This document shows, piece after piece, positions 1-53,777 of a stretch of DNA of 64,000 bases. This DNA is from Acarospora socialis (lineage: Eukaryota; Ascomycota; Lecanoromycetes; Acarosporales; Acarosporaceae). A program made the position numbers and the translations under genes. The notes under the pieces are model-generated. The model had not been told where the DNA came from. It searched no databases and saw only the letters and a program-made list of their open reading frames with translations. The DNA lies in NCBI GenBank assembly GCA_025617375.2, contig JAMYGW020000005.1, positions 1,550,001 through 1,614,000 on the forward strand, given 5' to 3'. Position 1 is the first letter of the stretch, and each line of letters opens with the position of its first letter.

Positions 1-244
1 TTACTACTACAATTCACCTAATGATGCATACAAATCAGTCACAAAATGCTCTCACTGTTGCTTTCATTTCAACATCTATGACAAGTTTATAGAGCATATG
101 CAAAGAGAAGAACACAAGACATAGAGATTTGCATACTAGTTAGCATGAGATTCTCTGATCACTGTGGTATTTGTTTTAGTGAATAGATATTGTGATGTGT
201 TTTGCAATGAGAACATTGCTTTTTTTGTTTTGTTGTGAGCATAT

Positions 245-540
245 TGTTATGATTAAACCCTAGGTCTTTGCTTACCTGACTGCTTACTCAGTCATGTCTA
301 TTCACTTAAATCTTATATAACTTTCACACATAGCTTAAAGTAGAAGAACAAGAGACTTACACTTATACACTTGATCTAAATAGTCACAGCTTCAGTTCAC
401 ATACTATTTACTATATAGCATTGAGCTCAATAGAACACTACTGAGAACTTAACTTCTCATTGTGAGTATTGCACTCTTAACACTTATGCTGTTCTGTTTA
501 TATCTGAGATATAATCAGTAAATATTAAACAACAATAACA
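245..540. repeat. Possible LTR (TGTTAT...ATAACA ends)
   Basis: A 296-bp segment begins TGTTAT and ends ATAACA, a 6-bp terminal inverted repeat of the same kind as the other LTRs in this window. It is richer in retained CCC/GGT triplets than its surroundings. No partner copy and no matching 5-bp flank were found, so it could be the 5' LTR of an element whose remainder (541-2096, then 7561 onward) was split by the Copia insertion, or it could be chance. Confidence 0.3.
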
Positions 541-2096
541 GTTCATTCATCTCATCACTCATTTCTTCTCTCTCAACTTTTTTCACATATTATTTTTTCA
601 CTTCTGCAATTTATATCAGTTCAAATCAACAGTGATAGCATCATAAATTCAGACATGCAAACAGTATGTAATTTAATGATCAATTCTAATAATGATTTTA
701 ATGCTAACAAGAATCAAAATACTTAATACATAACTGCACTCTAAGATTTTCATATCTGATCAGTTAAAACACAACAATTTTATTAATGAAGCAGACAATT
801 CAGAAATCAATGCAGTTGTATATTTTAACACTTTGTTTTAACACTTAAATGATAATATACTGATTATTGTTGCAGCTTAAGTTGTTTTTCAAGAATATTA
901 TAATGAGATTGAATATGAAGAGTGTTGTTGTCATTGATAACATTGTTGAGAATGATCTTAAGAAAAATGATGTTGAGAAAAATATTATTGAAAAAAACAG
1001 TGATAAGAACAATAATATTGAGAAGAACAGCAATACAAATATGTGTTTTAATACATCATTTTAAAGCTAAATTGATATTGATATACTGATAACTGTTAAA
1101 CTGAGTTATCTTCTTATAAAAGTGATGTGAATGATAACAATATGAGAGAAATTGACACAAAGATGTGTTTTAATGCAATAATTTAATGTCAGTTCAATTA
1201 CTATATTAATGAATAAAATATAAAGTTCTCATAACTCATCATCAAAGATTCATCAATTTAAGCAGACAAAATGAAAGTGCATCAGTTTCAAATTCTTAGC
1301 AAAGAAAAAGAAGTGATAAGTTAAGAGAGACTTCACATTATCATTATTTTTTGAAGTCAAAAATTTCTCATTAATTAAAGAATAACAGCAGAATTACTGT
1401 ATTACTGAAACAAAAGATCATTCATTGATGAATTTAAATTTTACTTCAAGTAAAACATCATCTAAGTATAGTATAAATTCTGCAATAACTCAGATCAGAG
1501 AGCAATGATAAATACTATTTAATAATTTCACAACAAATTAAATTAAACAAGTAAATATAGCAGATCAGAATACAAAACATGTTGTTTTAAAGAAACTGTA
1601 TGCATTTAATGATTAAAAATCAGCAACAAAGACTCAGCAAAAGATTCTGAAAGATGACACTGTTAATATATTAAAAGTTAAACATTATAATTTCAACATT
1701 TTCAGTAAATGTTTTCTGAATTCTAATAGTTAATTTTAATATTCATATTCTGATCTGCTTATAAAGAAATTTCTTATTAATCAAATTAAAATTGAAATGC
1801 ATTAATTACAGAGATAAATCAAAGTTCAGAAGAAAAAAGATTGTGTGATTCTGTTTAAAAAAGTTTATGTTAAATGAATAATTGAAGAATTCAGCAAAGT
1901 TGTTTCAATATTGATTTTTACTTCACTTAAACTAATATATTGTTGCAGATTGAATCTGAAAATGTTATGAGTAAGTTTGAAAAGATGTAAATTAATAATT
2001 TCACAATAATTATTAAGCATCAAGAACACATAATCAATTTGTGCAGAGAAAAGTTCTTGAAGACAGTCAGAAATAAGAACTTAAAGAAAACAATAA
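541..2096. other. AT-rich stretch without a recognisable gene
   Basis: This stretch has very low GC, with almost no CG, CC or GG dinucleotides. Short Asn/Lys-rich reading frames (for example around 867-1064) are low-complexity and have no recognisable motif. The DNA just before 2097 and just after 7560 was continuous before the Copia element inserted, so 541-2096 and 7561 onward belong to one older sequence. I cannot assign it to a family. Confidence 0.5.
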
Positions 2097-2306
2097 TGTT
2101 AAAAAGTATGATGTTCTAACTGCTTCTATAGTCTTAGTTGAGACTAGTGTCAGAAATTACTCATTATTCATATAGTCTGTGTGACAGAGTATGTAAATAG
2201 ATAATCTTTACAACTTACATTGATCATAATCAAGTCAACAGTGTATATTTCATTAAATAGACAGTTAGTCAGCAGTATAGCACAGATATTCTTTTATTTC
2301 TCAATA
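2097..2306 (+). repeat. 5' LTR of the Copia-type element
   Basis: This is the 210-bp left LTR. It is alignable over its full length with 7351-7560 and, in reverse complement, with the solo LTR at 24551-24760. It starts TGTTAAAAAG. The AATAA target duplication lies immediately upstream. Confidence 0.85.
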
Positions 2307-2359
2307 AATTATGAGTTCAGATTAGCAAGAAGCTTTTTAAAGAAAGTGCATACTATTTT

Positions 2360-2622
2360 AATATCTCAGCAGCTTGATACAGAAACTCAAAGATTGAGTA
2401 AAACAAGCATTACTGATCATTGATATAGAGTTTTAAAATTGAATAAAACAAAACTCTTAACAGCTTGATACAGAATTAAAACAAACACTCTTAATTATCA
2501 ATACAGAACTCAAAAATTGAGCAAAACAATATTCTTGACACTTAATACAGAGCTTTAAAATTGAGTAAAATGAAACTTACTGACAACTTAATACAGTGCT
2601 CAATGATTGAGCAAATAAGCAC
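2360..2622 (+). repeat. Degenerate tandem repeat, about 45-bp period, in the Copia leader
   Basis: About six imperfect copies of a unit built around TTGATACAGAACTCAAA and ATTGAGTAAAACAA run head to tail just after the 5' LTR. Units start near 2367, 2412, 2464, 2500, 2543 and 2587. The array lies in the untranslated leader of the element, so it may have been part of its promoter or packaging leader; that role is inference. Confidence 0.6.
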
Positions 2623-14045: not shown

Positions 14046-14168
14046 TTGTTATTATTTAAAAAATTTAACATTCAACAGTATTACATAATCAATGAGATCT
14101 GCTGAAGAAAATAATGATAATAATAATAATAAAATTCACACAAGAAAGTAAGAAAGATGTCAAATACA

Positions 14169-14529
14169 TGTTATGATTATATCTGAAGAGAAAGAAACTC
14201 ATGAGTCTATAATTAAAAATTTGTCTGAAGTGTGTACAGAGAGAACTGCAGAGTGACAGTCACATAATGACACAACAGCTCAATAACAAGTAAACAAGCT
14301 GAAAGCTCAATTTCTCAACATCAAGACATCAAAACATCAAGAGTGCTCAATACAGAGATATTGAGCTTGTTCTATATAGTAAAATCAATTTTTTTATGAA
14401 ATTAATCATGTTCAACTTAAGTAACAATTTAAGAATTAAAGATCAGAACTGTTTCAGATCAGTTATTATATTAATAAGCATAAACTCTTAGTTCTACATA
14501 CTTGAGAAAGCTTAGATTAGAATGTTACA
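14169..14529 (+). repeat. 5' LTR of chromovirus A
   Basis: This 361-bp LTR matches 20006-20366 over its full length with the same ends (TGTTAT...GTTACA). It contains the block TTCTATATAGTA followed by a TTTATGAAATT segment that is shared with the LTRs of copy B. Confidence 0.85.
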
Positions 14530-17500
14530 CTTTGAACATTCTTACAATATAACAAGTATGATGTCTGATACATAGAAGAATATCTCAATCTTATTTTTAA
14601 AACAAGTTCAGATGAACTCATCTTTATTATTTACTTTAAATAGAATGATGACATGATCAGTGATGATGTCAGTTCAAATACAACTATCTTTGAGTGCATC
14701 TAAGATACAGATATCATATATCTTTGATGAAGAATGAGAAAAACTGTGAGTCTTTGTGGTGAAGCTTGATCTATATATTGAATTCAATCAGTTGAAGTTT
14801 CAAATCAATTAAGAAAAAACATTGTTTGCAATGATCTATCTTGTGAATACAGTCTTCAATTGAATTAATCTTAAGCTGCACAAGTTTCTGAGAAAAAAAT
14901 ATGAAGAATACAACACAGATGTGAAGTCTATATTCAATAACTATGCACAGTTTAAGAAAGAATTAAGAAAAGTTTTTGAGATAATTGATGAAGAGAAAGC
15001 AGCAGAAAAACAAGTTCATATTTTGTAACAAAATAAATCAGCAGCAATATACATTACAGAGTTTCAGTGATTAGCAGCACTTATTAGATAAAATAATGAA
15101 GCACTTATTTATCAGTATTATTGTGAATTAAAAAAGTTCATCAAAGACAAAATAGTCTGAGCAGAACAATCAGACAATCTTTAGAAAATGATTGATTTGA
15201 ATATCAATATCAATAGTTGTCAGTGAGAACAACAGATAAAACAAAAAAAATATTAAATATCATTTATGATAAAAGATCAAGAAGAAAGCTTCTGACTGTA
15301 AATTAAACAATATATTTTATTGATAAGATATAGAGAGATAAATTCTATGAATCTTAATATGATTGAGAAGTGTCATCAAAAGCTATAAAAGACTAGATGA
15401 ATAAAGCATGAATGTCAGTCAGAGTGATTCACTAAATCTCAGACAACATCACAAAACAAAATATAAATGTATTACAACTGCAGAAAACTCAGACACCTTG
15501 TTTAAGAGTGTAACAGATCTTGAATAAAAAGAAAAAATGTTGTAGTGACAGTCAAGAAGAATACACACATAGTGCACAACACTCTCAGCTGAACAGTCTG
15601 CTACAATGACATGTGCAGAGTACACATGAGTACAAAAAATAAAGTCAGATAATATCTTCAGAAATTATACAACAAAGACATTAGAGATAGACACAACACA
15701 ATGAGTTGATTAAACTATGAGAAAAAATTAACTACTTTTGCAAAAAAACATATCAAGAAAGATGTTCTTGATGTTAAGATTAAAGAGACTGATACTCAAG
15801 AAATTCAGATAAAAAAAGACTACAGTAATAACATCTGACAAACACTGAATTTGAATGCAGATCAGAAAGAAATCAATGAATGAAAAGTCAATATAAAATT
15901 GAAGACAGTATATCAGCATTCTGAGAATCAACATTGAGCATTAAAAGAAGAAAAGCTTCAATTTAAGAAGCAAGAGCTTGAGCAAGAAGTGCAAACTTAA
16001 AAACAAAAAGCACAACACAAGAGTACAGAAAAACAAAAGACATATGATCAGCTAGAAGAGCTGATAATAGCTGTTAAAGATGAATGTTTTAACAGTGATG
16101 ATGCAATATTGCTGAAATCTCTTGTTTGAAAAATGAAAAGTCACAAGATTGAGATATACTTACTCAAAGAGAACATCATGCAAAATAAAGACAGATGAAT
16201 CTTCAGCAAAGAGTATATATCATTTGAATTTCTGCAAAGAGTAAAAGTTTTTAAGAGTTAATTATAGATAAAGTATAATCAATATGAATTCTGACTACAT
16301 TTAGAAAGATATATTGAGCAGTATAGTTTAGAGTATGCAAATCTTATGATTGAAAGAGAATCAAAGTGATTTCAAGAACTTTGAAGATGAGTTGAACAAT
16401 TAAATGAGTCAAAAAATGAAAAGCTTTCTCAACAAAACTAAAGAATAAGAAGCTAGCAGTGTTTCAAAGACAAGACAATGATTATTAAATATAAATCAAG
16501 ATCACAATCAGTGAATATCATATCAACACACTGATGAATTTCAGAGCAAACAGTAATATTATGAATTAGAAAATAGTCAATATGTTAAAATTAGAGATAT
16601 GATGAGCACACTGTTTATTCAACATATGAATGATAAATGAAGTCATCAAAAGAATTGATGAAAAAATCTGTGTAAAAGTCTCAATTCTTGAAAACTCACA
16701 AGAGATAACATTTGATGTTATGAAATCAATTGAATACAATACAGTGTTAAAGATGTTCTGATTGTGCAGAAGAAATCTGAAAATTAACTGAGTTATAAAA
16801 AAAATATGTGTAATCAAAAACACATATAAGATTTCTGAACAATCAGAAATGAGTTTATTAGAGTATAAGTTATAAAATCATAAAATACTGCTATTGAACA
16901 GAAAACAATCTAAATGAATGTCATTGTACTCAATGAGTGAAAATCAACTCAAGAAAGTTAGAACTTACCTTGATGAGAATTTAAAGAAAGAATTCATAAA
17001 ATCATCAAAGTCATCAGCAGAATACTTAATTCTGTTTATATCAAAAAAAAATGACAAAAAATAACTATGTGTCAACTACAGACAACTCAATGAGATAACT
17101 CATTAAGATAATTATTTTCTATCTTTGATAAAAGAGTTGCAAAATTAACTAAACAAAACTAAGTGATTCACAAGTTTAGATCTTAAGAACATTTATTATC
17201 AAGTTAAAATGAAAGAAGATAAAGAATGAAAGATGACATTCTGAATAAGATATGAACATTATGAATATACTGTTATGTTATTTAAATTGAAAAATGCATC
17301 AGTCATCTTTCAGAGATTAATCAATGATATATTGAGAGAATATCTCAATGATTTTATAATCACATATCTTAATGATATTCTGATATACTCAGAAGATCTT
17401 GAGAAGTACTGCAGATATATGTGTAAAATATTAGTAAAGCTTAATGAGAAAGCTCTGTACATAAAAAAGTCAAAAAGCAGATTTGAAATCAAGAAAGTTG

Positions 17501-36959: not shown

Positions 36960-37183
36960 TGTTATGTCCTAACCTGAGATTCCTCGGGTATTAGGGCTAA
37001 GAGTTTGTGCTTGTTGATATAACAATTTGTATGATACAATAGACTCTGAATTTAACTCTTAAATGATAACTGAAGTTGAACATGATTGTTTTCATAGAGA
37101 AAACAATTCTACTATATACTATGAAATCATCACACTCATTAAATTCACATAGAGTTCAATAAGCTAATATTATAGAATCTGAA
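36960..37183 (-). repeat. Truncated LTR, chromovirus A-related (minus orientation)
   Basis: It begins TGTTATGTCC and contains CTAAGAGTTTGTGCTTGTTG, the reverse complement of the end of the LTRs of copy A. It is cut off where the next LTR starts (37184). It sits 22 bp after the stop codon of the preceding host gene and marks the start of the second AT-rich block. Confidence 0.65.
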
Positions 37184-37534
37184 TGTTACATTCTGACCTA
37201 AGATTCCTCAGATATTAGAACTAAGAGTTTTGACTTGTTGATATAAAGATTCTTCTGTTGCACAATTGTCTGATAATTTTTAAATGATAATTAGAAGTTA
37301 AATATGATTCTTTTCATAAAAAAAATGACTGTAACTATATACTGAACTTACTTGCTGATCTCATTGCTGAGTCTGTTAAGTTGACTCATTTATGTAGTTC
37401 ATTGAGTTTACTCATTAAGCTCATCACTGAATATAACAAGATATTATATAATTTTTCTTGATAGCTCATCTGTCAAACATCTCTCAAATATATATATCAA
37501 TTTTATTCATACTCATTTCAGTATGATTATAACA
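37184..37534 (-). repeat. 351-bp LTR, family C (minus orientation)
   Basis: It begins TGTTACATTC and ends TATAACA. It aligns over its full 351 bp with 52993-53343 in the same orientation. Its flanking pentamers do not match each other. On its inner side (37595-37792) is a frame like the antisense accessory frame of chromoviruses A and B, as expected for the 3' LTR of a minus-strand element of this clade. Confidence 0.75.
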
Positions 37535-37594
37535 TTATCTTTTCTCTCTTAAATATTAATTTCTTAGAATTTATATAAACAAGAGTATATATTT

Positions 37595-37792
37595 GTGTCA
37601 TTATCAGCAATGATGCTTTTTAAAAATTTTGATTATCTTCAAATCACAAAGAAAATTCAACTTATAAATGTATCAATTTCTTTTTCTTGTGATTATTGTG
37701 TCAGTTGTGATCTCAATTGCTTTATAATGAAATCTCAATTCAAATACAATAAATGTACTTGCTGTGATCATTTCTGTGTTGAAATTTTGTGA
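37595..37792 (+). other. Accessory cysteine-rich frame of a minus-strand chromovirus (fossil)
   Basis: This plus-strand frame is similar to the antisense frame of chromovirus A (shared SAMML, NF, KKIQL, FSC, LNCF, YNKCTC/YNKYTC). Being antisense to the neighbouring minus-oriented LTR, it keeps the same relative place and direction as in copies A and B. The remainder of the element is missing beyond about 37850. Confidence 0.5.
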
Positions 37793-37849
37793 GAATATCT
37801 CAATGAAATTTGTCTTTCACTTTAAAAACAAAAAAGTAAAGTAAATGAT

Positions 37850-39095
37850 GAACTGACAGTTAACATATCAAACTTATTATACTCTTTTTAAAAATTATAC
37901 ATCTTCAGATAATCACATAACATGAAGTTAGATTTGCTTTTCATAAGTACAAGATAATTCATTTCTTCAGAATTAAAATCAAATTCAATATACAGACAGT
38001 TGTATGAATTCAGAACAATGAATTGATTTTTTTTTTGTGTAAAAATCTTAAAATTTTAATTTAATTCTAAACTCAAATGAATCATTCATATTAAAATTCT
38101 TCAAAACTAAATAATCAAACAGACAGAAGTACTAATCAGAATAGCAGCATTTATTTAAGAAACTTTTTTTATATGATTTTAACAGATTTACATAACAGTT
38201 ATTTGATCAACAATGACTTATGAAGCACATATTTAACACATATCTGTCAAGAATCATCACATAAGAAGAATTGTCAGTGCAATTAAAATTACTCAGTTTA
38301 AATATCTTTGTACAATTGCTGATGCTTATCAAACTACTTTAATCAGCACTTTGAAAATTAAGATTTACATTTTTTCTCTTAATCTATATTTTAATGATAA
38401 AGTGCAAATCTATACTGCTTATACAAAGAACACAGTCTTTACAGAAATGAAAAACAAAATCTGCAATTTTATTAGAAAAAGAATTAAACAGAAAGTCTAT
38501 CAATTCATAATGACTGTGATAATTATTTACTTTTTAATGAAACTGATAAAGAAGATCAGCTTGAATTATATTTATTTATTTATTCTTCATTCTATGCATG
38601 CAGCTTGATATAACTATGGTAGTTGATGACATTTGTTGAATATGCAGATTTATTCTGACAATTCATATGTATAATATATGAATTACAGATTTATTCTAAT
38701 AATTCTAATTGCTTATTGATCACTTCTGATCAGTCAATCTGCTTGTGAGTCTCAGTGATCAATAGTTAAGAAAATTTGAGATTTGATGTCTAAATAATAA
38801 GTAAATGATTGTGTGTATAGTGTCTTTTATAGACAACTATGATCTGTAGAATTTTCATCACTTGTTTTTCTTATATAACTGAATGACTCAGTGATTGATT
38901 TTTGCTGAGTGGTGCAGGATTTCAACTCATGATCTTTGAAATTAAGTGATATATTAGTGAGATCACTACTTTTCTAGATTTTCACTTAATTTCTTAGATC
39001 ACTCAAGCAGTATACATTCACTATACCACTTAACCACTCAAGATCAGCTTGAAGAAAACTGTATAAAATGCATAAACTTAAAAATAATATGTGTT
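37850..39095 (+). mobile_element. Tad1-type LINE fragment (family D, copy 4), split by a SINE
   Basis: This is collinear with the reverse complement of about 8440-9160 of LINE D copy 1. It covers the ORF2 region after the RT domain (LNLYFNDKVQIYTAYTKN at about 38380-38430). The match is interrupted at AGATCAGCTTGAA (38553-38565) by a SINE and resumes at 39041-39095 before ending near a TGTTATG. It is degenerate throughout. Confidence 0.65.
38566..39040 (-). mobile_element. tRNA-headed SINE with LINE E-type tail
   Basis: This 475-bp insertion on the minus strand is flanked by perfect 13-bp duplications AGATCAGCTTGAA (38553-38565 and 39041-39053). The empty site is visible in LINE D copy 1 around 8521-8543. 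Its 5' end (39040 downward) reads TGAGTGGTTAAGTGG with an A-box-like TGGTATAGTGAATG. A B-box-like AGTTGAAATCC follows at about 38920-38930, then CCACTCA, which is complementary to the opening TGAGTGG. Its 3' end carries GCTGCATGCATAGAATGAAG and (TAAA)n, the same tail as LINE E, plus TTGACTGATCAGAAGTGATC, which matches the LINE E 3' UTR with few differences. This head/tail combination is how SINEs borrow a partner LINE's machinery. The tRNA of origin cannot be named because of mutation. Confidence 0.72.
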
Positions 39096-40048
39096 ATGAA
39101 TAGATCATAATCTCACTGTTTTGATCTTAGCTTTTGAACATGACTCATTGAGTCACTTAGCAATCTTGCTGTCATCATGAACTTATAAGCTAAAGTGCTA
39201 GATCTGAAAGAAATCTCTATAGATATATAGTCAGAATTTTTCATAGATAGATTCTTAGCAATTACATCTTTCATTCACTCATATAATGATTCTGATAATT
39301 TGATAGCATCAACATGTATAAATTATTGAGTCTTTGATCATTGATTCAAAGCTCTTGAAATCAGTCATTCTCATACAACATCATTGACAGTTAGATTTCT
39401 ATCTAGCAGTTATCATCAGTTTCTTTGATGTACAGCTTGCTGATCTCATCAAAACTGTTTTCACTGTTTATTAGATATTTACTTGACAGTATTTATCAGA
39501 CAACAATCTTATTGAACAATGTCATCTAGTCTCACTTGTTCAGTTCATCATTGTTCTATCTCACTTTGATTCATATTTACTCTGTTTCTCTCACACAACA
39601 TTACTGTCTTGTTACAGTCTTCTCACAGTTATGCTGTGAGTCATCAATCTGACAAAGTCTTCAGCAAACTCATCAGCAAACTCTAACATCATTGCTTCAA
39701 GTCAAAATCTACTTTATCTATCAGACTGTTGTGTACTAGCTGTTTATCAGCTTAAACAGTTCAAATTGATGAATCATGTCTATGTTTTTCTTATCTCAAA
39801 CAACATTGTCAGTCTTGCTCACAACATCATCACATTATATTCTACTTTCTCAGAATATCAGTCTTCTATCTTTACTATTGAATTACAGCAAATCTGTGCT
39901 GATATCAGTTAGTCAGATCTAGATTATTTTATCAGTTAATCACTCACTAAGAGCTTTCTCATCAGAGCTATTTGTTGTTTCAAAAATAACTCAATACTCA
40001 TATTAAATCACTTGACATTCTTAATGTGAGTCTCATTTCAGTCTACTG
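39096..40048. other. AT-rich stretch before a gag-like relic
   Basis: It starts TGTTATGAAT directly where the LINE D match stops, so it could contain the 5' LTR of the gag-bearing element that follows. No second LTR copy was found in the window. It is rich in TCATCA/TCTCAC-type sequence and contains no recognisable gene. Confidence 0.4.
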
Positions 40049-41040
40049 ATGATATCAATCAGTCTGACTCTTTCTGAACTGAGCAAAAACTTCATTAATC
40101 ACTATCTGCATCAAATCAGTCAGATAAATCAAACTCATTCACAGCATCATCATCACTCAAAACTGATCAGCTACACATATCAATGTTTTCTGAAACTTGT
40201 TCTAATATGTTTATCTTTGCTGATGAAAGTATTTCTTGTGATTCATTGTTATCACAAGAAATGATCAACAACAATGAAAATGATAGTCAGCATAGTAACT
40301 GCAAAATCTCAATGACTGATTCAGTCTTTTTGAAGACTCAAATGCAAATGCTACAAGACATGATGACTCAAGCTAAAAACAAAAGTTATGCTGCAGATCT
40401 TGCTGAAATTATTAATTTAACATCTCATTGTGCAGTAAATCTATCTCATTGTTCAGAAGTAGATCTATCTCATTGTTCTGAACAATCTTACTCAGATTGA
40501 CAGAACTCATCTTAACATCATCAATATAAGTCAGATTCTGATGATTCTGATGATTTTAATAATTTTATTGATGATTCTGATGATTTTAACAATTTTATTG
40601 ATGAATCAGTCTCTGACATCTTAAATGTGTCTCAATGACAGCAGAACAAAGATAATTGATTCTGCTCTGAAGAAGTAGACTTTTTCAACTCATATCTTAA
40701 CACTAAGAACTACAGCTCTGACAATATTGTTGATGTCAGTGAAAAGATCTACTTTCAAGACATTCATCTATTCATTGATTTCTTCAAGAATGTCACTCAT
40801 ATCAAGTCTGATGAAGTTGTTCACCAAAATCTGAATAAATATCTTTGTGACATCACTCAGAACTGATATATTGATCAATTGTCAGCAATTGAATGTGAAT
40901 ACATTTGAGAAGATCATGAAATAGAGTGATGAAAGAAGATGTTGTTTCATCATTTTAAACAAACTCAGTCAAATGCAATGAAGATGCTTGAAACAGAGCA
41001 TTATACTATTCAGAATGAATCTTGTACATTGTGATGAAGC
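40049..41040 (+). mobile_element. Gag-like retroelement relic (fossil)
   Basis: Plus-strand frames resemble the gag-like proteins common in ascomycete retroelements. A Gln/Met-rich lead (40183-40500) is followed by an acidic duplicated stretch (two copies of a DDSDDFNNFID-like unit, about 40537-40605). Then comes a region with IYFQDIHLFIDFFKNVTHI and YIDQLSAIE, matching the 'YRDVFLFIERIKDVA...WYTSELSDLE' pattern. It is broken by several lesions, and no pol is present. It ends where the inverted-repeat arm at 41051 begins. Confidence 0.5.
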
Positions 41041-41050: not shown

Positions 41051-41922
41051 AAAACCACAGAACCACAACCAAACCAGCTATCAAAATTCTGAATAGAGCA
41101 AATTCTTCATCTCATTCACTTTCATAAACTCTCAAAACAGCTTATCTTCATCATCAATACTGGTGGTGAGAGACCTCAATTATCATTCTTCCAAAATTTT
41201 TCACATATCTCCTCCCAAAAAACCAAAACAACATTTTAGACATCAACATCACCACAATCAACACATCTTCAAAAATTCTGAATCAACAGTTTTCTTCATC
41301 TTGATCTCTTCTAAAATTCATACTGTTACTGCTTTTTGATATCTTTATTGCTCACAAAGTTGTTGAACTGTTTAGTTGTACCCCTTAGTATCTAGTTTTT
41401 GAAGTTCACAAATTTTCACTTAATTTTTCTAGCTTGCTTGACAGAATTTCTGCACACCAAGCATCACCAGATACCTCAACTAAGTCTCACTCACATCAAA
41501 ACACCAAAAACACCAAAACAACCAAGAAAACACCAAAAACACCACTTTTATGCCAACTACGCAGCAATTCCAGCCTATACACATCAAGCCACATCAATTC
41601 ACGCATCATACAACATACCTACATAGCTCTACCATCAAAACAAGCTAGTTTATCAACAAAATCAACTACTTTTCAGCTATTTTCACTCAAAAACCAGCGT
41701 TTCAGGTCAAATTTCTAAGCGTTACAGGCTGAATTACATCAAATCGCTCAATTCCAGCAACTGCACGCAGTTTCCACAAAAACTAGCCGCAAAATAGCCA
41801 TTTCTTGACGGATTTAGCTGAAATTTGAGCATTTCTTCTGTCAATTGATTAGCATTTTGCATGCAGAAAGAACCTACCAGTGAAGACATACTCTACACTA
41901 GAAGCATCTCACAAAGATCTAG
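41051..41922 (+). repeat. Left arm of a 0.87-kb inverted repeat around LINE E1
   Basis: This 872-bp arm is the inverted copy of 48144-49014. Landmarks shared in opposite orientation include ACCCCTTAGTATCTAG, the CACCAAAAACACCAAAAC tract, and AGAAGCATCTCACAAAG at the inner end. Its inner edge (CTAG at 41919-41922) abuts the (TTTA)n tail of LINE E1. It may be a piece of LINE 5' leader in plus orientation. Short Thr/Pro/Lys-rich frames in it are not convincing genes. Confidence 0.75.
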
Positions 41923-42000
41923 TTTATTTATTTATTTATTCTTCATTCTATGCATGCAGCTATAAAAGCTATGGCAGTTAATAGACATATAGTGAAAGAT
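41923..42000 (-). repeat. Duplicated 3' end of LINE E
   Basis: This 78-bp unit ((TAAA)n tail plus the last 60 bp of the 3' UTR, read on the minus strand) is repeated almost exactly at 42001-42083. Such tail duplications can arise when the LINE reverse transcriptase re-primes on a second RNA end. Confidence 0.75.
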
Positions 42001-42200
42001 TTTTATTTATTTATTTATTTATTCTTCATTCTATGCATGCAGCTATAAAAGCTATGACAGTTAATAGACATATAGTGAAAGATGTAGACACAAAACAAAA
42101 CTCAAAATCTTGTACATGTGAATAATCAATCTGAATGCTTTTTGATCACTTCTGTTCAGTCAACCTGATGCTGATTGTCAATCAATATCTTTTTTCTTTT

Positions 42201-45200
42201 CTAAATCTCATCTTCACCCTCAACTTCTTCTAATAACCATTTTCTAGTAGCTACTTTGGTTTTCTTCAAAAACAGCAAAGTAGCTTTGATTCCTTCCTTG
42301 GTAGTAAACAGCACCTTTGCTGTATATGGCAAATTGATGTTTCTGAGCTGATTTTTCAGCTCAGTTTGCTCCTTTTTGTTATATTGACAGGCTGTCAACA
42401 AATGCTCTGGAGTTTGATCTTTGTTGCATGCACCATTGCATTTCTTGCTGTTATAGTCTGGTAATCTATGCAGATGTGCTTTGAAATAGTCATGACCTAG
42501 TTTCATTTGTGTGAAAGTAGCAAATGAAAGTCTGTCTGCACTTTTCAGATCTTCTTTGATGTGAAAACTAGGTGTTTGATCAAACTGAGCATAGTATCTT
42601 TCTTGGGTTGTCTTTTTCCAGTGGGTAGTCCAGTTTTCCAGTGCTTTGACCTTGATTTTGTGTTTGATATAGCTAATAGATGTAAATCTATCAATATCTG
42701 GTGAAATTGACTGCTTTGCACCTGATTTTGCAGCTTTATCTGCTATTTCATTGCCTTTAATGTTCTCATGTCCAGGGACCCAATGAATATGAGGTGTAAC
42801 TTCATAATCTATGAGTTTTTGAAGAGTTTCTTGACATTTAATAGCTAGATGCTGTCCAGATCCTTGATTTGTGGTTTGAATTCTTTGTATAGCTGCTTGA
42901 TTGTCTGAAAAGATCCATATGTCTTTGATTCTTTGATATTTCATGATTTCTTTGAGACTTAACTTCAAAGACTGTGAAATTCCAAACAATTCAGCATCAT
43001 AGACTTCCATGGTGGTTCCTAGATTCCAAGATTGTTGATGTATAATATCTTTATACATGTAGCAAAGACCTGCACCTAGATTTTCATCTAGTTTTGACCC
43101 ATCTGTGTACAAAACAGCATTTTTAAACTTGGTTTCCTTAGAGAAAAGTGTTTCTAGTCTCTTTAGATGTTCCAAAGTAGCTAGTTTCTTGTCAGATTTG
43201 CTGATTTGAATGTCTATGTTTGGTGAAACACTCCAAGGTGCACAGCATAACTCATTTTGAGTTGAAACCTCCAAATTTAGTGTTTCTGGTAGATATTTGC
43301 AAATGTTATATAGCACTTTAATCAACTGAGTTGGGTGTTTCTTCTTAATGAGAGAGTTTGAATGTTGATTCCAGTCAAGATACTGATTTTCATCAATATC
43401 ACATCCAGTTCCAAGTCCTGGTGGGTAGGTGTATGGAGTTCTTTGTCTAATTGGATGATTTTCTGACAAAGTAGCTATTCTTAAAGCATATAGCTCTGTT
43501 TTTTGATCAAGTCTAAATCTGAGTGGTAATATAGCTGATTCTAGCTCCATAGCAGCTGATGGTGAAGACCTAAATGCACCTAGAATTTTTCTAGTTGCTG
43601 AATTTTGAAGTTTTTGAAACAGCTTTTCAAAATTCTTTTGTTGTTTCCACCATACTGGGCTTCCATAGTCACTTATAGATGTGATGCAGGCTGTGTACAG
43701 CTGTTTTCCAGCTGATGTTGATAAACCCCATTCAGAATTCATCAGTCTATGTAGTAAATGCAATGTTCTAGTTGCAGAAGCTATTTTCTTTTGCACATGT
43801 GTCTTAAAAGACATTTTAGTGTCAAATCAAACACCTAGCCAGCGTACAACTTTAGAAGGATGTATAACAGTGTTATTTGGTAGTTTTACTGTTGATATAG
43901 CTTGATTTCCTTTCTGAAAATGGATGAGTTCTGACTTGCTGTCATCAAATATAACTGCATTTTCTTCAGCTCATTGAAATGCAGTTTTTGTGACTGATTC
44001 TAGTGTTTTGCTGTTGTCTGCAGCTGTTTTTTCTTCCACAATAATAGTCACATCATCAATATAGCTTGGTAGCTTTAGTTGAGTGTGTTTATTGTTGATT
44101 TTTGTGAATAGAAATCGCATATAGATCAAAAATAGCATTGGTGATATAGGTGATCCTTGTGGAATTCCAGAATTGACACTTTGTGGGTGATTTTTTTCAC
44201 CATCAAAAGCTAGAGCAATTGTTCTATTTGTAAGAAAGCATTGCACCCATTTTAGTACAGTTTGTGGTAAATGTAGTCTTTTCATGACTTTTAGCAGTTG
44301 ATTTAAAGACACATAGTTAAATGCACCCTTAACATCCAAGAATAAAGCTGTCAAGACTTTGTTGTTATTGATTGCTTGTTGAATGTCATGTGTTAAACAC
44401 ATAGCTGCATCCACAGCTGATCTTTGCTTTCTACCACCCATTTGCTCATGATATAGCAAGTCTGTGGTTTCAGCCCAATAGGAAAGTCTTGTTGCCATTA
44501 TCTTTTCAGATATTTTGCCCAAGCAATTTAGTAGAGTGATTGGTCTATATGCTTTGGGTATTGAGTAGTCTGCTTTGTCTTCTTTTCTCAGAATTGCATC
44601 AGTTTCTTGACACCAGCATACTGGATGATAGTCTTGATTTATTAAAACTGAATAAACAGTGTGAAATAACTCAGATATAGCTTGATATGCATGTTGAATT
44701 ATCAAAAAGGACAATCCATCTGGCCCAGGTGCTTTCTTTGTTGATGAAGTCATAATAGCTTGTTTTATTTCCTTAGAAATGACTGAAAACCATGGTTTTG
44801 TGAGACTATTATCACATTCTAGCTCAACTGGACTTGTTTGAGGTGGTTTTGGAAACATAGCTTCAAGAAACAAGTCACATTTGTCTTTAAATATGAGTCC
44901 CACTTTGTTTTCATGCTTTATAGGAGGTGTTTTCTCTATTTTTCGTGGTTTAGTGTAATGATATGCTGTAAAAACATCTTTTCCAGCTGCACCTTGCAGA
45001 AAAGTAGTCCATGAGGTATGTTTGGCTTTCTGAATTGCGTGAAAGTATCTATTTCTTGCATTTCTGAATTGATTTCAGTTTTCTTGTGATTTGTGATGTT
45101 TTCAGTATCTTCTAAAACCACTCATTTCAGTTCTAAGTACTGATAATGATTCAGACCATCATACTTTGACTTTTGAACAAGGTTTTCTCTTTGGTATATG

Positions 45201-46118
45201 CTGATCTGCTGCATTTGCTATCAGATTTCTGAGAGAAATAGTCATTTCTTCTAGATTTTGATCTGATAGATGTTGCATTAAGCTTTGAATTTGAACACTG
45301 GTTTGTACTGAGTTTATTTGCAGAGTTTCTGCAAATTTAACCCAGTCTGCTTTGTCTATATTGTATGATGCACTCAGTGGACTTTCAACCCATTCAGACT
45401 CATTTGCAGTTATTTGAAACTGAATAACTTCATGGTCTGATCCAGACTCCATGTCTTGATTTACTTGCCAATTTCTGATGAAATTGCAAAGTAAGGGTGT
45501 TGCAAAAGTCAAATCAATCACTGATGTGGCATTTCCTGAGTGATGTGTATAGGTGTTTATGTCTGGTGTATTTAATAGCTCACAGTTGTGAATTTTCAAC
45601 CACTTTATTAAAGAAGTAGCTCTTATAGAGTTTTCTATTGATGAATTTCACCATGCATGATGTGCATTAAAATCCCCACAGATAATAGCTCTTTGTGGTA
45701 ATTGAATTGCTGTTAAACATCTGTCTATGGTCCATTGATCATTGTTGATTTGCTGTGACTTTTCATTGTATATGTTAAGTAACAGTATACTAGAAATTCC
45801 ATTTGCTGAAATACTGAGTATTTGCAAATCTGAGTCTTTTGACAAGTCAGGTCTTGGTATACACACTAAATCTTGTTTAGTTTTAGACACAAATGCCATA
45901 GTTCTAGGTCTAATATCTAGATTAGATGTGGGTATCAAACTAGTAAAAGATGGATGTGAAATAGTGGTTTTGTTGTCTCTTGCAACCCATGGTTCTTGAA
46001 GAAGAACTATGTCTGCAGTTTTTGTAGCTGAATTCAGACATGAGTACATGACATTCATAGATCTTGCGCAGTTGTGTTGTAGAATGGTGATTTGTGATGA
46101 ATTTGTTGTGTTATTCAT
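42201..46118 (-). pseudogene. LINE E1 ORF2: endonuclease / reverse transcriptase / RNase H
   Basis: A single frame of 1306 codons starts at an ATG (46118) that overlaps the ORF1 stop as ATGA. The first about 250 residues form the APE-like endonuclease (LLQEPWVA, ICGDFNAHHAW). RT follows, with YRPITLLNCLGKI, GGRKQRSAVDAA, FLDVKGAFNYVS, GIPQGSPISP and the catalytic SYIDDV (about 44070). RNase H follows, with YTDGSKLDE, SDNQAAIQ and WVPGHENIKGNEIAD (about 42750). A C-terminal Cys/His patch is CNGACNKDQTPEHLLTAC. Six TGA codons fall at positions where Trp is expected (45648-45650, 45159-45161, two between 45060 and 45120, 43971-43973, and one near 43830). The copy at 49041-51964 still has TGG at the first two sites. 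The last 538 codons are uninterrupted. Its job would be target-primed reverse transcription. Confidence 0.88.
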
Positions 46119-47704
46119 GACATTTTCATAGATAGTGGATCTGCTGTTGAAGAAATAGGCTGTAGTGCTTTGAAAACACTGCATTCTGCACTATTTGCTT
46201 GATGTTTCTCACCACAATTGCTGCATTTATAGACTATATGTGCGCAAGTGGTTCCTTTTGACTGTGTGGGACAAAGAAAACAGCCATGTTCTCTAGTATT
46301 GTGGTTTCCTGTACAGAATTGACATGTGTCTTGATTTTTACATACTTTTTGAGTATGTCCAAACTTTTGACACTTTCTGCATTGATCTGTTGGTTTGCAA
46401 GTGTTGTAGACTGCAGTTCTAACTGATGTTCCAGCAATTATCAGTCTGTTTCTGAGTGCTTTTTGAGCTTCTTGTTCTGATTTGACTGTCAAGACAATAG
46501 ATGCATGCTGTTTTTCCTGTCTGGCTTCTTCTGAAGTAAGTCAGCGTGGTAAAATAGCTAGTTTGATATCTTTGTTGAAGGTTTCTACTTCATCTTTGAC
46601 TAGTTGCATGTCTTCTTTGCCGTTGAAAATAGCTGTGGGAATTCCATGTGCTACTATTTTGTACCACTTTTCATCCTTTTTGATTTCTATGAATTCAGAT
46701 GATGAATTCCAGATTTGTTGATGTTTTAGCAAGTCTTCTGCTGTGCCTTCACTGGTTGTGAGCACTATACTAGCTTTGGATTGTGAAATAGCAACTGTGG
46801 AAACCAGCAAATTGTCTATTTTTGCTGTTTTAAGTGCGTTGTTGATTTTGTTGCGCATGTCTATGGCATTGATAGTAGTTGTGGGTGTTTTTGACTTTAT
46901 AACTAGACGTCTTTCTCTGAAAGTAATGGGTTTATCCACTACTTTTGACTTTGGTGCTTTTTTTTGAACAGTTGTCCATGAGTTTTGAGCATTTTGATCT
47001 TTGCTGCTTGCAATTGATGCATATGTTGCTGATTTCACTGTTTTTGTTGATGTTGGCTGTCCAAAGCTGATTTTGTTTGTCTGTACAAAGTTGATAGGGT
47101 TTGTTTTGTTTGTCTGAAAGACAAATGCTGGTTTCTCTGTGGTTTCTGACTTTGTCTTAGACATTGTGTGAAGAATTTTGTCTAGTTTGATGTTGACTTC
47201 ATCTTTGAAGCTGTCTAGTTGTTGTTGAACATCTAGTTTCTGATGAAATGTCTCATCTAACTGTTTGAGTGAGTCTAGATTTGCATTTTGTCTTGCTTGA
47301 TCCAGTGTCTTGATGCTAGTTTCTAGTTCTTGTTGAACTATGGGGTTTGTGAATTGCTGAATAGCTTGCTTGAGGTAGTTTCTGGCTTGTTGAAGTAGTT
47401 TGTCACCATTTTGACTTTTTGGGTGTAGGTTTGTGCAGTTTGCATGATGAGTTTCATGCTGATTTGGTTCTTCATCAGAAGAAATAGCTTCTAGCACTGG
47501 ACTGACAATGGCTCTTCTCTTTTTAGACTTTAGAATAGTCTTTTGAGAAGGTTTCATGGTGATTTGTGATCCCAACAGGTCTGGTGAACTCATAAAGAGT
47601 TGTGGAAGTGCTGTTTTTGGTGATTTTTGTTGTTTTGTAGGTGTTTTTGGGTTTTCTAGGTTGAAATCTTGCATGAAGTTGCTGGAATCCAGTGCAAAAG
47701 TCAT
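46115..47704 (-). pseudogene. LINE E1 ORF1: gag-like RNA-binding protein with zinc knuckles
   Basis: The frame spans 530 codons including the stop. The N-terminal half is Gln/Thr/Lys-rich with a predicted coiled coil (KQLDETFHQKLDVQQQLD). The middle (about residues 270-390) is the RNA-recognition-like block found in Tad1-clade ORF1 proteins (RRLVIKSKTPTT, VLTTSEGTAEDLLKH). The C-terminus carries three knuckles: CRKCQKFGHTQKVC (CX2CX4HX4C), CQFCTGNHNTREHGC and CSNCGEKHQANSAEC. One in-frame TGA (46541-46543, after LAILPR) replaces a tryptophan and is the only lesion. Its stop codon overlaps the ORF2 start in the string ATGA. Confidence 0.85.
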
Positions 47705-48143
47705 GATATGAGGTGTTTTTGGGGTCCATCCTGTCCAAATCCAAAATCCTATTCAAATCCAGGTCCAGAAGGTCTATGTCTAGCAGTAATTATCTAGTTT
47801 TTGAAGGTAAAAACTAGATTTTCCTGAGGTTCTAGATTATAGAAGCTTTGAATCCTTATTTCATCTAGAATAGGCTGTACCCAATTGCCTAATCCAGATG
47901 TTGCTTAATATCCCAATTCACCTAGAGTAGATAAACTCTACAATAGGCTTTTACCAGCTCTACTATAAGCAAGACTATACTATAAGTCACTCAACCACTA
48001 GGTCTTGGGGCAGATGCGTCTAGGGCAAGATTTCCATGTGGAGCCTCGTATTTATATCTCAACTACTCAGACAACGTTGTTTGCCAGTCTGAGCTTTTAC
48101 CAGCAGGTAGGGCTAGAAAATAGCTACCTGCTTATACCCTTCA

Positions 48144-49014
48144 CTAGGTCTTTGTGAGATGCTTCTAGTGTAGGGTATGTCTTCACTGGTAGGTTCTTTC
48201 TGCACGCAAAACGCTAATCAATTGACAGAAGAAATGCTCAAATTCCAGCTAAATCCGTCAAGAAATGGCTATTTTGCGGCTAGTTTTTGCGGAAACTGCG
48301 TGCAGTTGCTGGAATTGAGCGATTTGGTGTAATTCAGCCTGTAACGCTTAGAAATTCGACCTGAAACGCTGGTTTTTGGGCGAAAATAGCTGAAAAGTAG
48401 TCGATTTTGTTGATAAAATAGCTTGTTTTGATGGTGGAGCTATGTAGGTATGTTGTATGATGTGTGAATTGATGTGGCTTGGTGTGTATAGGCTGGAATT
48501 GCTGCGTAGTTGGCGTAAAAGTGGTGTTTTTGGTGTTTTCTTGGTTGTTTTGGTGTTTTTGGTGTTTTGGTGTGAGTGAGGCTTAGTTGAGGTATCTGGT
48601 GATGCTTGGTGCGCAGAAATTCTGTCAAGCAAGCTAGGAAAATTAAGCGAAAATTTGCGAACTTCAAAAGCTAGATACTAAGGGGTACAACTAAACAGTC
48701 CAACAACTTTGTGAGCAATAAAGATATCAAAAAGCAGTAATAGTATGAATTTTAGAAGAGGTCAAGGTCAAGAAAACTGTTGATTCAGAATTTTCAAAGA
48801 TGCATTGGTTGTGGCGATGTTGATGTCTGAGATGTTGTTTTGAGTTTTGGCTGGAGGTATGCAAAAAATTTTCACTGAATGATAATTGAGGTACCCCACC
48901 ACCAGTATTAATGATGAAGATAAGCTGTTTTGAGGGTTTATAGAAGTGAATGAGGCAAAGAATTTGCACTATTCAGAATTTTGATAGCTGCTTTAGTTGT
49001 GGTTCTGTGGTTTT
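48144..49014 (-). repeat. Right arm of the 0.87-kb inverted repeat
   Basis: This 871-bp arm is the reverse complement of 41051-41922. It lies immediately upstream (minus sense) of the LINE E1 leader. It keeps clearly more CG dinucleotides than the left arm (for example GCACGCAAAACGC and GTAACGC), so the left arm has been mutated further. Confidence 0.75.
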
Positions 49015-49040: not shown

Positions 49041-51964
49041 TGGTTTAGTGTAATGATATGCTGTAAAAACATCTTTTTCAGCTGCACCTTGCAGAAAAGT
49101 AGTTCATGAGGTATGTTTGACTTTCTGAATTGCGTGAAAGTATCTATTTCTTGCATTTCTGAATTGATTTCAGTTTTCTTGTGATTTGTGATGTTTTCAG
49201 TATCTTCTAAAACCACTCATTTCAGTTCTAAGTACTGATAATGATTCAGACCACCATACTTTGACTTTTGAACAAGGTTTTCTCTTTGGTATATGCTGAT
49301 CTGCTGCATTTGCTATCAGATTTCTGAGAGAAATAGTCATTTCTTCTAGATTTTTATCTGATAGATGTTGCATTAAGCTTTGAATTTGAACACTGGTTTG
49401 TACTGAGTTTATTTGCAGAGTTTCTGCAAATTTAACCCAGTCTGCTTTGTCTATATTGTATGATGCACTCAGTGGACTTTCAACCCATTCAGACTCATTT
49501 GCAGTTATTTGAAACTGAATAACTTCATGGTCTGATTCAGACTTCATGTCTTGATTTACTTGCCAATTTCTGATGAAATTGCAAAGTAAGGGTGTTGCAA
49601 AAGTCAAATCAATCACTGATGTGGCATTTCCTGAGTGATGTGTATAGGTGTTTATGTCTGGTGTATTTAATAGCTCATAGTTGTGAATTTTCAACCACTT
49701 TATTAAAGAAGTAGCTCTTATAGAGTTTTCTATTGATGAATTCCACCATGCATGATGTGCATTAAAATCCCCACAGATAATAGCTCTTTGTGGTAGTTGA
49801 ATTGCTGTTAAACATCTGTCTATGGTTCATTGATCATTGTTGATTTGCTGTGACTTTTCATTGTATATGTTAAGTAACAGTATACTAGAAATTCCATTTG
49901 CTGAAATACTGAGTATTTGCAAATCTGAGTCTTTTGACAAGTCAGGTCTTGGTATACACACTAAATCTTGTTTAGTTTTAGACACAAATGCCATAGTTCT
50001 AGGTCTAATATCTAGATTAGATGTGGGTATCAAACTAGTAAAAGATGGATGTGAAATAGTGGTTTTGTTGTCTCTTGCAACCCATGGTTCTTGAAGAAGA
50101 ACTATGTCTGCAGTTTTTGTAGCTGAATTCAGACATGAGTACATGACATTCATAGATCTTGTGCAGTTGTGTTGTAGAATGGTGATTTGTGATGAATTTG
50201 TTGTGTTATTCATGACATTTTCATAGATAGTGGATCTGCTGTTGAAGAAATAGGCTGTAGTGCTTTGAAAACACTGCATTCTGCACTATTTGCTTGATGT
50301 TTCTCACCACAATTGCTGCATTTATAGACTATATGTGCGCAAGTGGTTCCTTTTGACTGTGTGGGACAAAGAAAACAGCCATGTTCTCTAGTATTGTGGT
50401 TTCCCGCACAGAATTGACATGTGTCTTGATTTTTACATACTTTTTGAGTATGTCCAAACTTTTGACACTTTCTGCATTGATCTGTTGGTTTGCAAGTGTT
50501 GTAGACTGCAGTTCTAACTGATGTTCCAGCAATTATCAGTCTGTTTCTGAGTTGAAACTGAATGTGATATTGATGAAGATCATTATCTTGACTGGAATCA
50601 ACATCCAAACTCTCTCATTAAGAAGAAACACCCAACTCAGTTGATTAAAGTGCTATATAGCATTTGCAAATATCTACCAGAAACACTAAATTTGGAGGTT
50701 TCAACTCAAAATGAGTTATGCTGTGCACCTTGGAGTGTTTCACCAAACATAGACATTCAAATCAGCAAATCTGACAAGAAACTAGCTACTTTGAATCATC
50801 TAAAGAAATTAGAAACACTTGTTTCTAAAGAAACTAGAGCAAGAAATGCTATTCTATACACAGATGGGTCAAAACTAGATGAAAATCTAGGTGCAGGTCT
50901 TTGCTACATGTATAAAGATATTATACATCAACAATCTTGAAATCTAGGAACCACCATGAAAGTCTATGATGCTGAATTGTTTGGAATTTCACAGTCTTTG
51001 AAGTTAAGTCTCAAAGAAATCATGAAATATCAAAGAATCAAAGACATATGGATCTTTTCAGACAATCAAGCAGCTATACAAAGAATTCAAACCACAAATC
51101 AAGGATCTGAACAGCATCTAGCTATTAAATGTCAAGAAACTCTTCAAAAACTCATAGATTATGAAGTTACACCTCATATTCATTGGGTCCCTGGACATGA
51201 GAACATTAAAGGCAATGAAATAGCAGATAAAGCTGCAAAATCAGGTGCAAAGCAGTCAATTTCACCAGATATTGATAGATTTACATCTATTAGCTATATC
51301 AAACACAAAATCAAGGCCAAAGCACTGGAAAACTGAACCACCCACTGGAAAAAGACAACCCAAGAAAGATACTATGCTCAGTTTGATCAAACACCTAGTT
51401 TTCACATCAAAGAAGATCTGAAAAGTGCAGACAGACTTTCATTTGCTACTTTTACACAAATGAAACTAGATCATGACTATTTCAAAGCATATCTGCATAG
51501 ATTATCAGATTATAACAGCAAGAAATGCAATGGTGCATGCAACAAAGATCAAACCCCAGAGCATTTGTTGACAGTCTGTCAATATAACAAAAAGGAGCAA
51601 ACTGAGCTGAAAAATCAGCTCAGAAACATCAATTTGCCATATACAGCAAAGGTGCTATTTACTATCAAGAAAGAAATCAAAGCTACTTTGCTGTTTTTGA
51701 AGAAAACCAAAGTAGCTACTAGAAAATGGTTATTAGGAGAAGTTGAGGGTGAAGATGAGATTTAGAAAAGAAAAAAGATATTGATTGACAATCAGCATCA
51801 GATTGACTGAACAGAAGTGATCAAAAAGCATTCAGATTGATTATTCACATGTACAAGATTTTGAGTTTTGTTTTGTGTCTACATCTTTCACTATATGTCT
51901 ATTAACTACCATAGCTTTTATAGCTGCATGCATAGAATGAAGAATAAATAAATAAATAAATAAA
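49041..51964. mobile_element. LINE E2: 5'-inverted (twin-primed) copy
   Basis: There are two opposed segments of LINE E. 49041-50551 is on the minus strand and covers the zinc-knuckle end of ORF1 and the ORF2 endonuclease up to the start of RT. 50552-51964 is on the plus strand and covers the region after RT (TECDIDED...), RNase H, 3' UTR and (TAAA)n tail. The middle of ORF2 (RT core) is missing. The switch occurs at GAG/TTGAAACTG with 1-2 bp of shared sequence. Inverted 5' part followed by sense 3' part with tail is the signature of twin priming. RNase H frames on the plus strand are interrupted by TGA at two Trp sites (near 50938 and 51334). No clear target duplication was found. Confidence 0.8.
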
Positions 51965-51965
51965 T

Positions 51966-52275
51966 CACTTCAATGTTGTTGACTTTACATTTGCATATCA
52001 TCACACAACAAACTGTCAATCATAACAGTAAAGAAATTAGAATTGTAAGTTTCAATATCTATTTATTACAGATAGATTACTAGAGTAGATTTATGACAGT
52101 GTGAAATATAATGATACACAAGCTATTTGATGATAGAGCAACACAATATATCTTTATTGATGTCAAAACTAATTTCTGAAGAGTCTTATATGTAAAGAAG
52201 TCTTATACTTATAGACTCTTACTTAGCTACACTTACTAAGATGTAATGCTGTGACTGTGCTTCATTATTTATTCT
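51966..52275 (+). repeat. Repeat X, copy 2 (unoccupied target of chromovirus B)
   Basis: It is similar to 25989-26274 and continues without interruption through GCTGTGACTGTGCTTCATTA (about 52250), where copy 1 is split by chromovirus B. Less mutated than copy 1. It starts directly after the LINE E2 tail. The element class is unknown. Confidence 0.65.
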
Positions 52276-52890
52276 GACAGATATTGAGTTCAAAGATTTA
52301 TATGACTTTTTTTCTCTTTTTTCACATCATTTTGTTCTTTTTCTTCTCAAAGATGAAAATCACATCATCACTGAACAGACATCTTGCAGTCATTATTATT
52401 TTTGAAGTTTCTATCTTTTTTTGTATCTTTTGTATAATGTTTTGTTCTGTTTTTATTTTTTATATTTCTGTCTTTGTTTCTGATTTGATCATTATTTTTT
52501 GATATTTTCTTTGAGACACTGATAAAACTCTTATTTCAAGACTCTTGAAACTGATTGCTGCTGCTGAGTATATTTGTAAAAATATGAAAATTTTGATGAA
52601 ATCTTATACAATATTTGTAAAATTCTTAGTTTACTTCTTGATCTTCTGAAGATCAGTGTTCAAAGTATTACTTTTTTTTTTTGCATCACAGTTCTGATCA
52701 CTTTTCAAATCTTTTTTATCTTAATTGAACAGTTATTGATTTATACAAAACAATTTAGAGTGCTGATTATCTCTGAGAGACTTTGAGAGTGATGAGAAAA
52801 GTGAATTTTTTATTTAAGTAAAATTTTACTGCAATGTGTTTCTTCTGATTCTTCATCATCTTTTATTATTGTATGATTTTTCTTATGAGT
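52276..52890 (-). mobile_element. Tad1-type LINE fragment (family D, copy 3)
   Basis: This is collinear, on the same strand, with about 12100-12712 of LINE D copy 1, the ORF1 region including the TARCLF/SDDVIF block. Similarity stops at both ends, so it is a truncated piece. It has no open frame of significance. Confidence 0.65.
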
Positions 52891-52992
52891 CTTATTAAAG
52901 TAATTAACTTGTTGTTTGTACAGCTGCTTCAATGTTACTGATATATTTTAAGTAGAACATATTAGTTCATAATCAATATTTTGTATTCAAAG

Positions 52993-53343
52993 TGTTATAT
53001 TTTGATCTGAGATTTCTTAGATATTAAGATTAAAAATTTTAATTTATTGATATAAAAATTCTTCTGTTACACAGTTGTCTGATAATTTTTAAATGATAAT
53101 TAGAAATTGAACATGATTTTTTTCATAAGAGAAACAATTGTGACTATATACTGAATTCATTTGTTGATCTCACTATTGAGCTTATTGAGCTGATTCATTC
53201 ATGCAGTTTATTGAGTTTGCTCATTAAACTTATTATTAAACATGATAAGATATCACATGACTTTTCTTGACAATTCATCTGTCAAATGCTTCTTAAACAT
53301 ATATGTCAGTTCTGTTCATACTTGTTCTGATATGATTGTAACA
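52993..53343 (-). repeat. 351-bp LTR, family C, second copy
   Basis: It aligns end to end with 37184-37534 in the same orientation (TGTTATATTT...TGTAACA). It is inserted in an inverted piece of repeat X (which follows from 53344). No matching target pentamers were seen. It could be a solo LTR or the 5' LTR of a minus-strand element whose 3' LTR is 37184-37534 and whose interior has been overrun by later insertions. Confidence 0.7.
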
Positions 53344-53470
53344 CTTTATCATTAAATAGCTTGTGTATTGTTATATTTCACACTGTTATAAATCTACTCT
53401 AGTAATCTATCTGTGATAGATAGGTATTGGGACTTACATAATTATAACATTGATGACAATAATAATATGA
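53344..53470 (-). repeat. Repeat X, inverted piece at the block edge
   Basis: This is the reverse complement of the core of repeat X: ATAGCTTGTGTATTGTTAT, then AATCTACTCTAGTAATCTATC. It has the least mutated version (retains TTGGGACTT). Together with copy 2 (51966) it forms an inverted pair around 53290 bp of other insertions' edges, so X may be the terminal inverted repeat of a DNA transposon; this is inference. Confidence 0.5.
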
Positions 53471-53777
53471 CTATGTATGGCTCTTGACCCATGAAGCTTA
53501 GTATGTGTAATGTATTATTTCAGTAAATTACATGAATCATTAGGTAGTCACCAATCAAGATCATTAGATACTCACAATATCGTGGTGTGGTGACTGTTTT
53601 CATACGGTTGGAAGTTGATTTTTAGATTTAGTGCGTTTTCAATTGAACATTGTTTTTAGACCATGATAACACGATTAATTGGGACCTGCTTTGTCCGCTA
53701 AGGTAGTTAGCTTGACTTTTGTCTCATGGAGTCACCTCAACACAGAACTGTCAATATAGCCACCGCCAGAGGTTCCA

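Follow-up and report, generated by a model that had tools for sequence, protein, structure and literature searches.

Graded CpG and CpC preference of RIP-like C-to-T mutation in transposon blocks of Acarospora socialis

Results

Layout of the window

We analysed 64,000 nucleotides of the Acarospora socialis genome (assembly GCA_025617375.2, contig JAMYGW020000005.1, positions 1,550,001 to 1,614,000 of the forward strand; hereafter the window), in which transposon copies carry C-to-T changes resembling repeat-induced point mutation (RIP), with CpG and CpC as the main targets. The window consists of AT-rich blocks alternating with two gene islands (approximately 33.4–36.8 kb and 53.6–64 kb). Its features, including long terminal repeat (LTR) elements and long interspersed nuclear element (LINE) copies, are listed below; block and island composition was taken from dinucleotide counts.

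1–26000: AT-rich block of old transposon copies, CpG and CpC exhausted
14169–20366, + strand: old element O, presumably Gypsy-type; LTRs 14169–14529 and 20006–20366; RVT_1 in 17245–17520
26275–32344, + strand: element M, presumably Gypsy-type; LTRs 26275–26591 and 32028–32344; RT_RNaseH_2 in 29673–29930, SH3_Tf2-1 in 31125–31388
33290–33374: edge zone of 85 bases, CC/GG present, no CG
33375–36758: gene island 1, composition unmutated
36759–36984: edge zone of 226 bases, CC/GG present, no CG
37001–41000: old block, CG 0, CC and GG near zero
42002–47752, − strand: LINE copy 1, poor in CpG, most CpC retained; endonuclease, reverse transcriptase and RNase H matched in its stop-free pieces
49041–51964: LINE copy 2; 49041–50552 oriented as copy 1, 50549–51964 inverted relative to copy 1
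52001–53422: old block, no CpG, CpC near zero
53581–64000: gene island 2, composition unmutated (54000–64000 counted)

The Gypsy-type label is our assumption for both M and O, whose stop-free pieces match a reverse transcriptase together with its RNase H, and a domain of Tf2-1 type. Element M is flanked by a 5-base target duplication (TGTGA at 26270–26274 and 32345–32349). The bases flanking element O, ATACA (14164–14168) and GTGCA (20367–20371), differ by two A/G transitions only and are possibly a target duplication that has itself been mutated.

The two parts of LINE copy 2 meet at 50549–50552 with a 4-base overlap, as judged by comparison with 42002–46457, and their opposed orientation resembles what we take to be 5' inversion during LINE insertion (twin priming). 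An 870-base segment beside the LINE copies (41051–41923 and 48143–49014, inverted, 93% alike, with some CpG kept) is probably the LINE 5' region. At the 3' end of LINE copy 1, an 83-base unit is present in 1.9 tandem copies (41923–42083, 98% alike). The LINE reverse transcriptase had no relative among the viral contigs searched. The regions 1–14 kb and 37–41 kb hold copies repeated within the window; five stop-free pieces from them gave no Pfam match above the curated cut-off, and the Rfam and tRNA scans returned no matches.

Dinucleotide composition and standard RIP indices

In the segment 2001–26000 the GC content is 24.8%, CG is absent (370 expected), and only 4 CC (355 expected) and 3 GG (385 expected) are left. 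Two hundred base shuffles of this segment gave on average 372 CG and 740 CC+GG, with lowest values of 313 and 681, as against 0 and 7 observed. ACC accounts for six of the seven CC/GG surviving across these 24 kb. Relative to expectation, CA (1.49x), TG (1.46x), TC (1.32x) and GA (1.29x) are in excess, TA is at 0.67x, and TA/AT is 0.77. The region of element M (26.3–32.3 kb) is intermediate, with CC at 0.25–0.41x, GG at 0.09–0.18x and CG at 0 in 2-kb windows. In the gene islands CG, CC and GG are at 0.85–0.96x in both stretches counted, the first of which (32500–37600) includes AT-rich edges. Within the window, the mutation is confined to the transposon blocks.

An initial annotation of the window, made from the sequence alone, had described CG, CC and GG as almost absent from both AT-rich blocks, over positions 1–53590. 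This holds at 1–26 kb, 37.0–41.0 kb and 52.0–53.4 kb. The second AT-rich block, however, is heterogeneous: at 42–52 kb CG is indeed depleted (0.11x), whereas CC (0.85x) and GG (0.66x) are largely retained, and the range given also contains the untouched gene island at approximately 33.4–36.8 kb. The continued abundance of CA/TG and TC/GA was confirmed in the old block (1.29–1.49x in 2001–26000), and the opposite pattern, CpA depleted and TpA enriched, was not seen.

The same annotation predicted that standard RIP indices would look normal, and none of the 114 windows tallied passed the RIP criteria (127 windows in total, the other 13 lying outside the named regions). The mean composite RIP index of the old blocks was −0.73. 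Index thresholds were taken from PMC7882544, except that our product cut-off of 1.1 was laxer than the published 1.15.

Changes within LTR pairs

Because both LTRs of one element are identical at insertion, the differences between them record change that took place after insertion. The LTR pair of element M differs by 37 transitions and no transversion in 316 alignment columns. Eighteen of these transitions form nine CA/TG couples, each arising from a CpG mutated on one strand in one LTR and on the other strand in its partner; the remainder comprises 12 changes at CC, 6 at CT and 1 at CA. Per-copy hazards calculated from the differing fractions were ~0.74 for CC, ~0.07 for CT and ~0.01 for CA; no CG survived in the pair. 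The 95% upper bound of the transversion hazard was near 0.005, giving a calculated CpC:transversion ratio of ~150 or more.

The pair of element O is older than that of M and shows 48 transitions and no transversion in 362 columns. No CC or CG is left in it, and besides six CA/TG couples it carries 21 single changes at CA and 15 at CT. These 36 single CpA/CpT changes, unaccompanied by any transversion, do not support the wording 'not CpA' of the initial annotation, and CpA and CpT look like slow targets of seemingly the same process. Taken together, the two pairs hold 85 transitions and 0 transversions, an outcome with a chance of 3e-4 at a transition:transversion ratio of 10:1 and of 0.05 at 28:1.

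Context of changes in LINE copies and older pairs

The two sequences quoted by the initial annotation as a pair of differing LINE copies, CTTGCGCAG and CTTGTGCAG, were located at 46063 and 50158; the distance of 4095 equals the repeat spacing of LINE segment a. In LINE segments a and b, the youngest comparison, the changed fractions were 2/7 for CG, 26/128 for CC, 7/503 for CA and 4/368 for CT, with 3 transversions, when a 66-base divergent patch (alignment positions 243–308 of segment b) was excluded. The preference for CC over CA+CT had an odds ratio of 20 (Fisher p 1.5e-16), in support of the RIP-like hypermutation with CpG and CpC preference that had been proposed. With the patch included, the values were CG 2/7, CC 27/130, CA 11/511, CT 12/384 and TCC 17/41, with 7 transversions and p 4.6e-13. 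A 5' T was favoured (patch excluded: TCC 16/40 versus 10/87 for other NCC, p 6e-4), and ACC was a slow context in these young copies (6/60 changed). Stops differ between the LINE copies in 17 cases, 14 of them TGG/TGA, as expected of CpC mutation on the other strand; the count covered three frames of a single strand, so that not all cases lie in the coding frame. The earlier claim that C-to-T changes occur mainly before C or G is borne out by 10 of 13 transitions in LINE segment a and by half of those in segment b (19 of 39), and fails for the oldest copies. In seven old pairs all C/T differences are at CpA (232/526) and CpT (222/482), because no CpC or CpG remains there to differ.

Among adjacent double transitions in the 11 old and middle pairs, CA/TG outnumbers AC/GT by 154 to 28, and this excess is fossil CpG. 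The context count of old pairs used 14 of 17 pairs, since 2097/24544, 22323/30060 and 20743/29271 reuse copies; the remaining pairs partly overlap (parts of 15346–19578 are reused) and are therefore not independent.

The target ranking in the window is thus graded, with CpG at least equal to CpC and both far ahead of CpA and CpT.

Forward simulation

To compare target models, forward simulations were run over a coarse grid, the ancestor being represented by gene-island odds and a lower score meaning a better fit. The best fits (2.54–2.70) mutated CpG and CpC at an equal rate (1) and CpA/CpT at 0.03–0.15, and a model with CpG three times CpC was nearly as good (2.96). The next class, CpG only with weak CpH, scored 4.79, and CpG+CpC with CpA and no CpT scored 5.31. 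Exclusive CpG+CpC targeting (6.98 versus 2.54) was rejected, also on account of the CpA/CpT changes in the LTRs of O, and the CpC-only (8.85) and CpG-only (10.0) models were rejected as well; the model without mutation scored 11.78. The best fits have an ancestral GC of 0.56, the limit of the values offered. None of the models reproduced the AT odds (target 0.87; 0.96–0.99 in the five best fits), and with CpA/CpT at 0.15 the fit retains CC at 0.22 versus 0.01 observed.

Island edges and neighbouring genes

Both edges of gene island 1 carry a zone in which CG is gone and CC/GG remain, and a similar zone lies at 53423–53580. These zones would fit the spread of a CpG-first process, but they are short. 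The unique neighbouring genes are spared, perhaps with the exception of such short edges.

In gene island 2, tandem 33/66-base repeats at 58275–58613 (inside 57234–59362) encode an Ala/Lys/Glu-rich stretch preceding a ubiquitin-like domain (ULD_2). This tandem repeat lies in an island of ordinary composition and looks spared. The ubiquitin-like protein (57234–59362) had no relative among the prokaryote genomes searched. A 5-phosphatase piece on the − strand at 61.9–62.8 kb had as its top solved-structure match 1i9y, a phosphatidylinositol phosphate phosphatase.

Discussion

We consider that the blocks were most probably shaped by RIP, or by a similar repeat-directed C-to-T mutator, whose context preference is graded and atypical, and assign this reading a probability of roughly 0.78. 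Two hallmarks of RIP are seen in the window: the changes consist of C-to-T transitions, on one strand or the other (37:0 and 48:0 against transversions in the two LTR pairs), and repeats are hit while unique genes are spared. Under this reading CpG would be attacked first and CpC second (TpCpC best), followed by CpA and CpT, which would be ~10–70 times slower per site. Acting on transposon copies round after round, the mutator would have exhausted CpG and CpC on both strands, turning CG into TG or CA, CC into TC and GG into GA, and would have left a GC content of ~25%, an excess of CA/TG/TC/GA and Trp codons converted to TGA. The enzyme is probably of the RID/DIM-2 class; the mutator would employ a RID- and/or DIM-2-type cytosine methyltransferase and would act before meiosis.

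Several points weigh against this reading. Segment b of the LINE holds 6 transversions beside 39 transitions, and the 11 pooled old and middle pairs hold 132 beside 1707, so that copies carry ordinary divergence, some of which perhaps predates insertion. Loss of CpG is common to the two LINE copies; it therefore predates their duplication, and its cause was not observed. The edge zones of 85 and 226 bases are too short to judge spread into the flanks, and the repeat-sensing step, i.e. recognition of duplication as such, would have to be supposed.

Among the alternatives, slow decay survives best. Here a silencing methyltransferase would act at transposon CpG and CpC, and 5-methylcytosine would deaminate over evolutionary time with no active mutator. 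CpG was lost first, the LINE copies being CpG-depleted with CpC kept, as such decay would have it, and in certain fungi CpG signatures have been attributed to methylation and subsequent deamination (PMC4352252, in excerpt). Decay also predicts accompanying ordinary substitutions, and although other pairs hold some, there are none in the 316 and 362 columns of the LTR pairs. Since transversions track ordinary ageing, their absence from these two pairs (85:0) favours a mutator over decay, as do the CpC hazard in LTR M of ~0.74 against a transversion bound of ~0.005 and the heavily changed but transversion-free CpA and CpT of LTR O. Long-term decay is therefore disfavoured and appears unlikely, although a very clean form of it (28:1) would still be compatible with the counts.

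A division of labour seems very unlikely to us; in this scheme CpG would be removed by methylation decay (e.g. through DNMT1 or DNMT5), and CpC would be the preferred target of a second mutator, of RID type. It could explain why the LINE region lost CpG independently of CpC (CG 0.11x, CC 0.85x), and Uncinocarpus reesii (Onygenales) is listed with one each of DIM-2, RID and DNMT5 (PMC7862722, in excerpt). This uncoupling is, however, also explained by a single ranked process, and the CpG sites seen in LTR M were all hit, as completely as one fast step would lead one to expect.

Classical Neurospora-type RIP with CpA preferred would account for low GC and transposon targets, but is refuted by the excess of CpA (1.49x) and depletion of TpA (0.67x), the 0 of 114 windows and a model score of 10.65, which leave it virtually no probability. 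An explanation without context preference (AT-rich DNA as such, or C-to-T drift at a uniform rate) agrees with the AT-richness of the blocks and is refuted just as firmly by the shuffles (740 CC+GG and 372 CG on average versus 7 and 0) and the simulation (8.79 versus 2.54).

Genome surveys of RIP such as PMC7882544 rely, as far as excerpts of that source tell, on TpA/ApT and CpA indices, and surveys of this kind would class as not RIP 24 kb without CpG and nearly without CpC. The LTR pairs supply their own starting point, which makes the target ranking readable from one window and gives clear predictions on which methyltransferase sets the context. We put forward tentatively, as a possibility we ourselves doubt, that in a fungus outside Coccidioides a single RID-family enzyme with (T)CpS specificity (S being C or G, 5' T favoured) drives transposons through the stages CpG, CpC and CpA/CpT. 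If so, the dinucleotides remaining in a copy would record the number of rounds it has passed, and surveys based on CpA indices would score such fungi as RIP-free.

Comparison with known systems

A literature search found nothing combining RIP with the phrase 'CpG and CpC'. In the excerpts of PMC5602860 (where CPC is a strain number), PMC11540331, PMC5555474, PMC6141143 and PMC3248453, CpC does not appear as a preferred RIP target. The comparative study PMC4352252 tabulates, in ten rows, CpA, CpT and CpG signatures, with 'CpC' occurring 0 times in the text as excerpted, and the excerpted part of PMC4014442 (Rhizoctonia) tabulates CpC changes and argues for a CpG bias.

RID-dependent RIP of the Neurospora type shares with the window C-to-T changes only, transposon targets, saturation and the sparing of neighbouring genes, but prefers CpA according to the excerpt of PMC2621366, whereas CpA and CpT are the slowest targets here. 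Microbotryum (TpCpG) and Tuber share the CpG target, and Microbotryum also the 5' T preference; the excerpts of PMC2621366 and PMC4352252 describe no CpC target for them, whereas the old blocks here have hardly any CpC left. For Uncinocarpus reesii, too, a rise in CA and TG has been linked to RID and RIP, although the excerpt of PMC7862722 makes no statement on CpC.

CpG and CpC are the main targets both in Coccidioides and in this window, and transposons are GC-poor. The primary paper on repeat-induced mutation in Coccidioides is reportedly that of Neafsey et al. 2010. Excerpts of a 2022 review describe such mutation there as "especially affecting CpG and CpC" (PMC9409882), and LINEs are given as 28–31% GC in a 46% genome (PMC5872316, in excerpt); these excerpts do not rank the targets and give neither a 5' context nor an extent of exhaustion for comparison. 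CpG and CpC are the most affected dinucleotides in the window too, and CpG+CpC repeat-induced mutation is, as a kind, already in print for Coccidioides.

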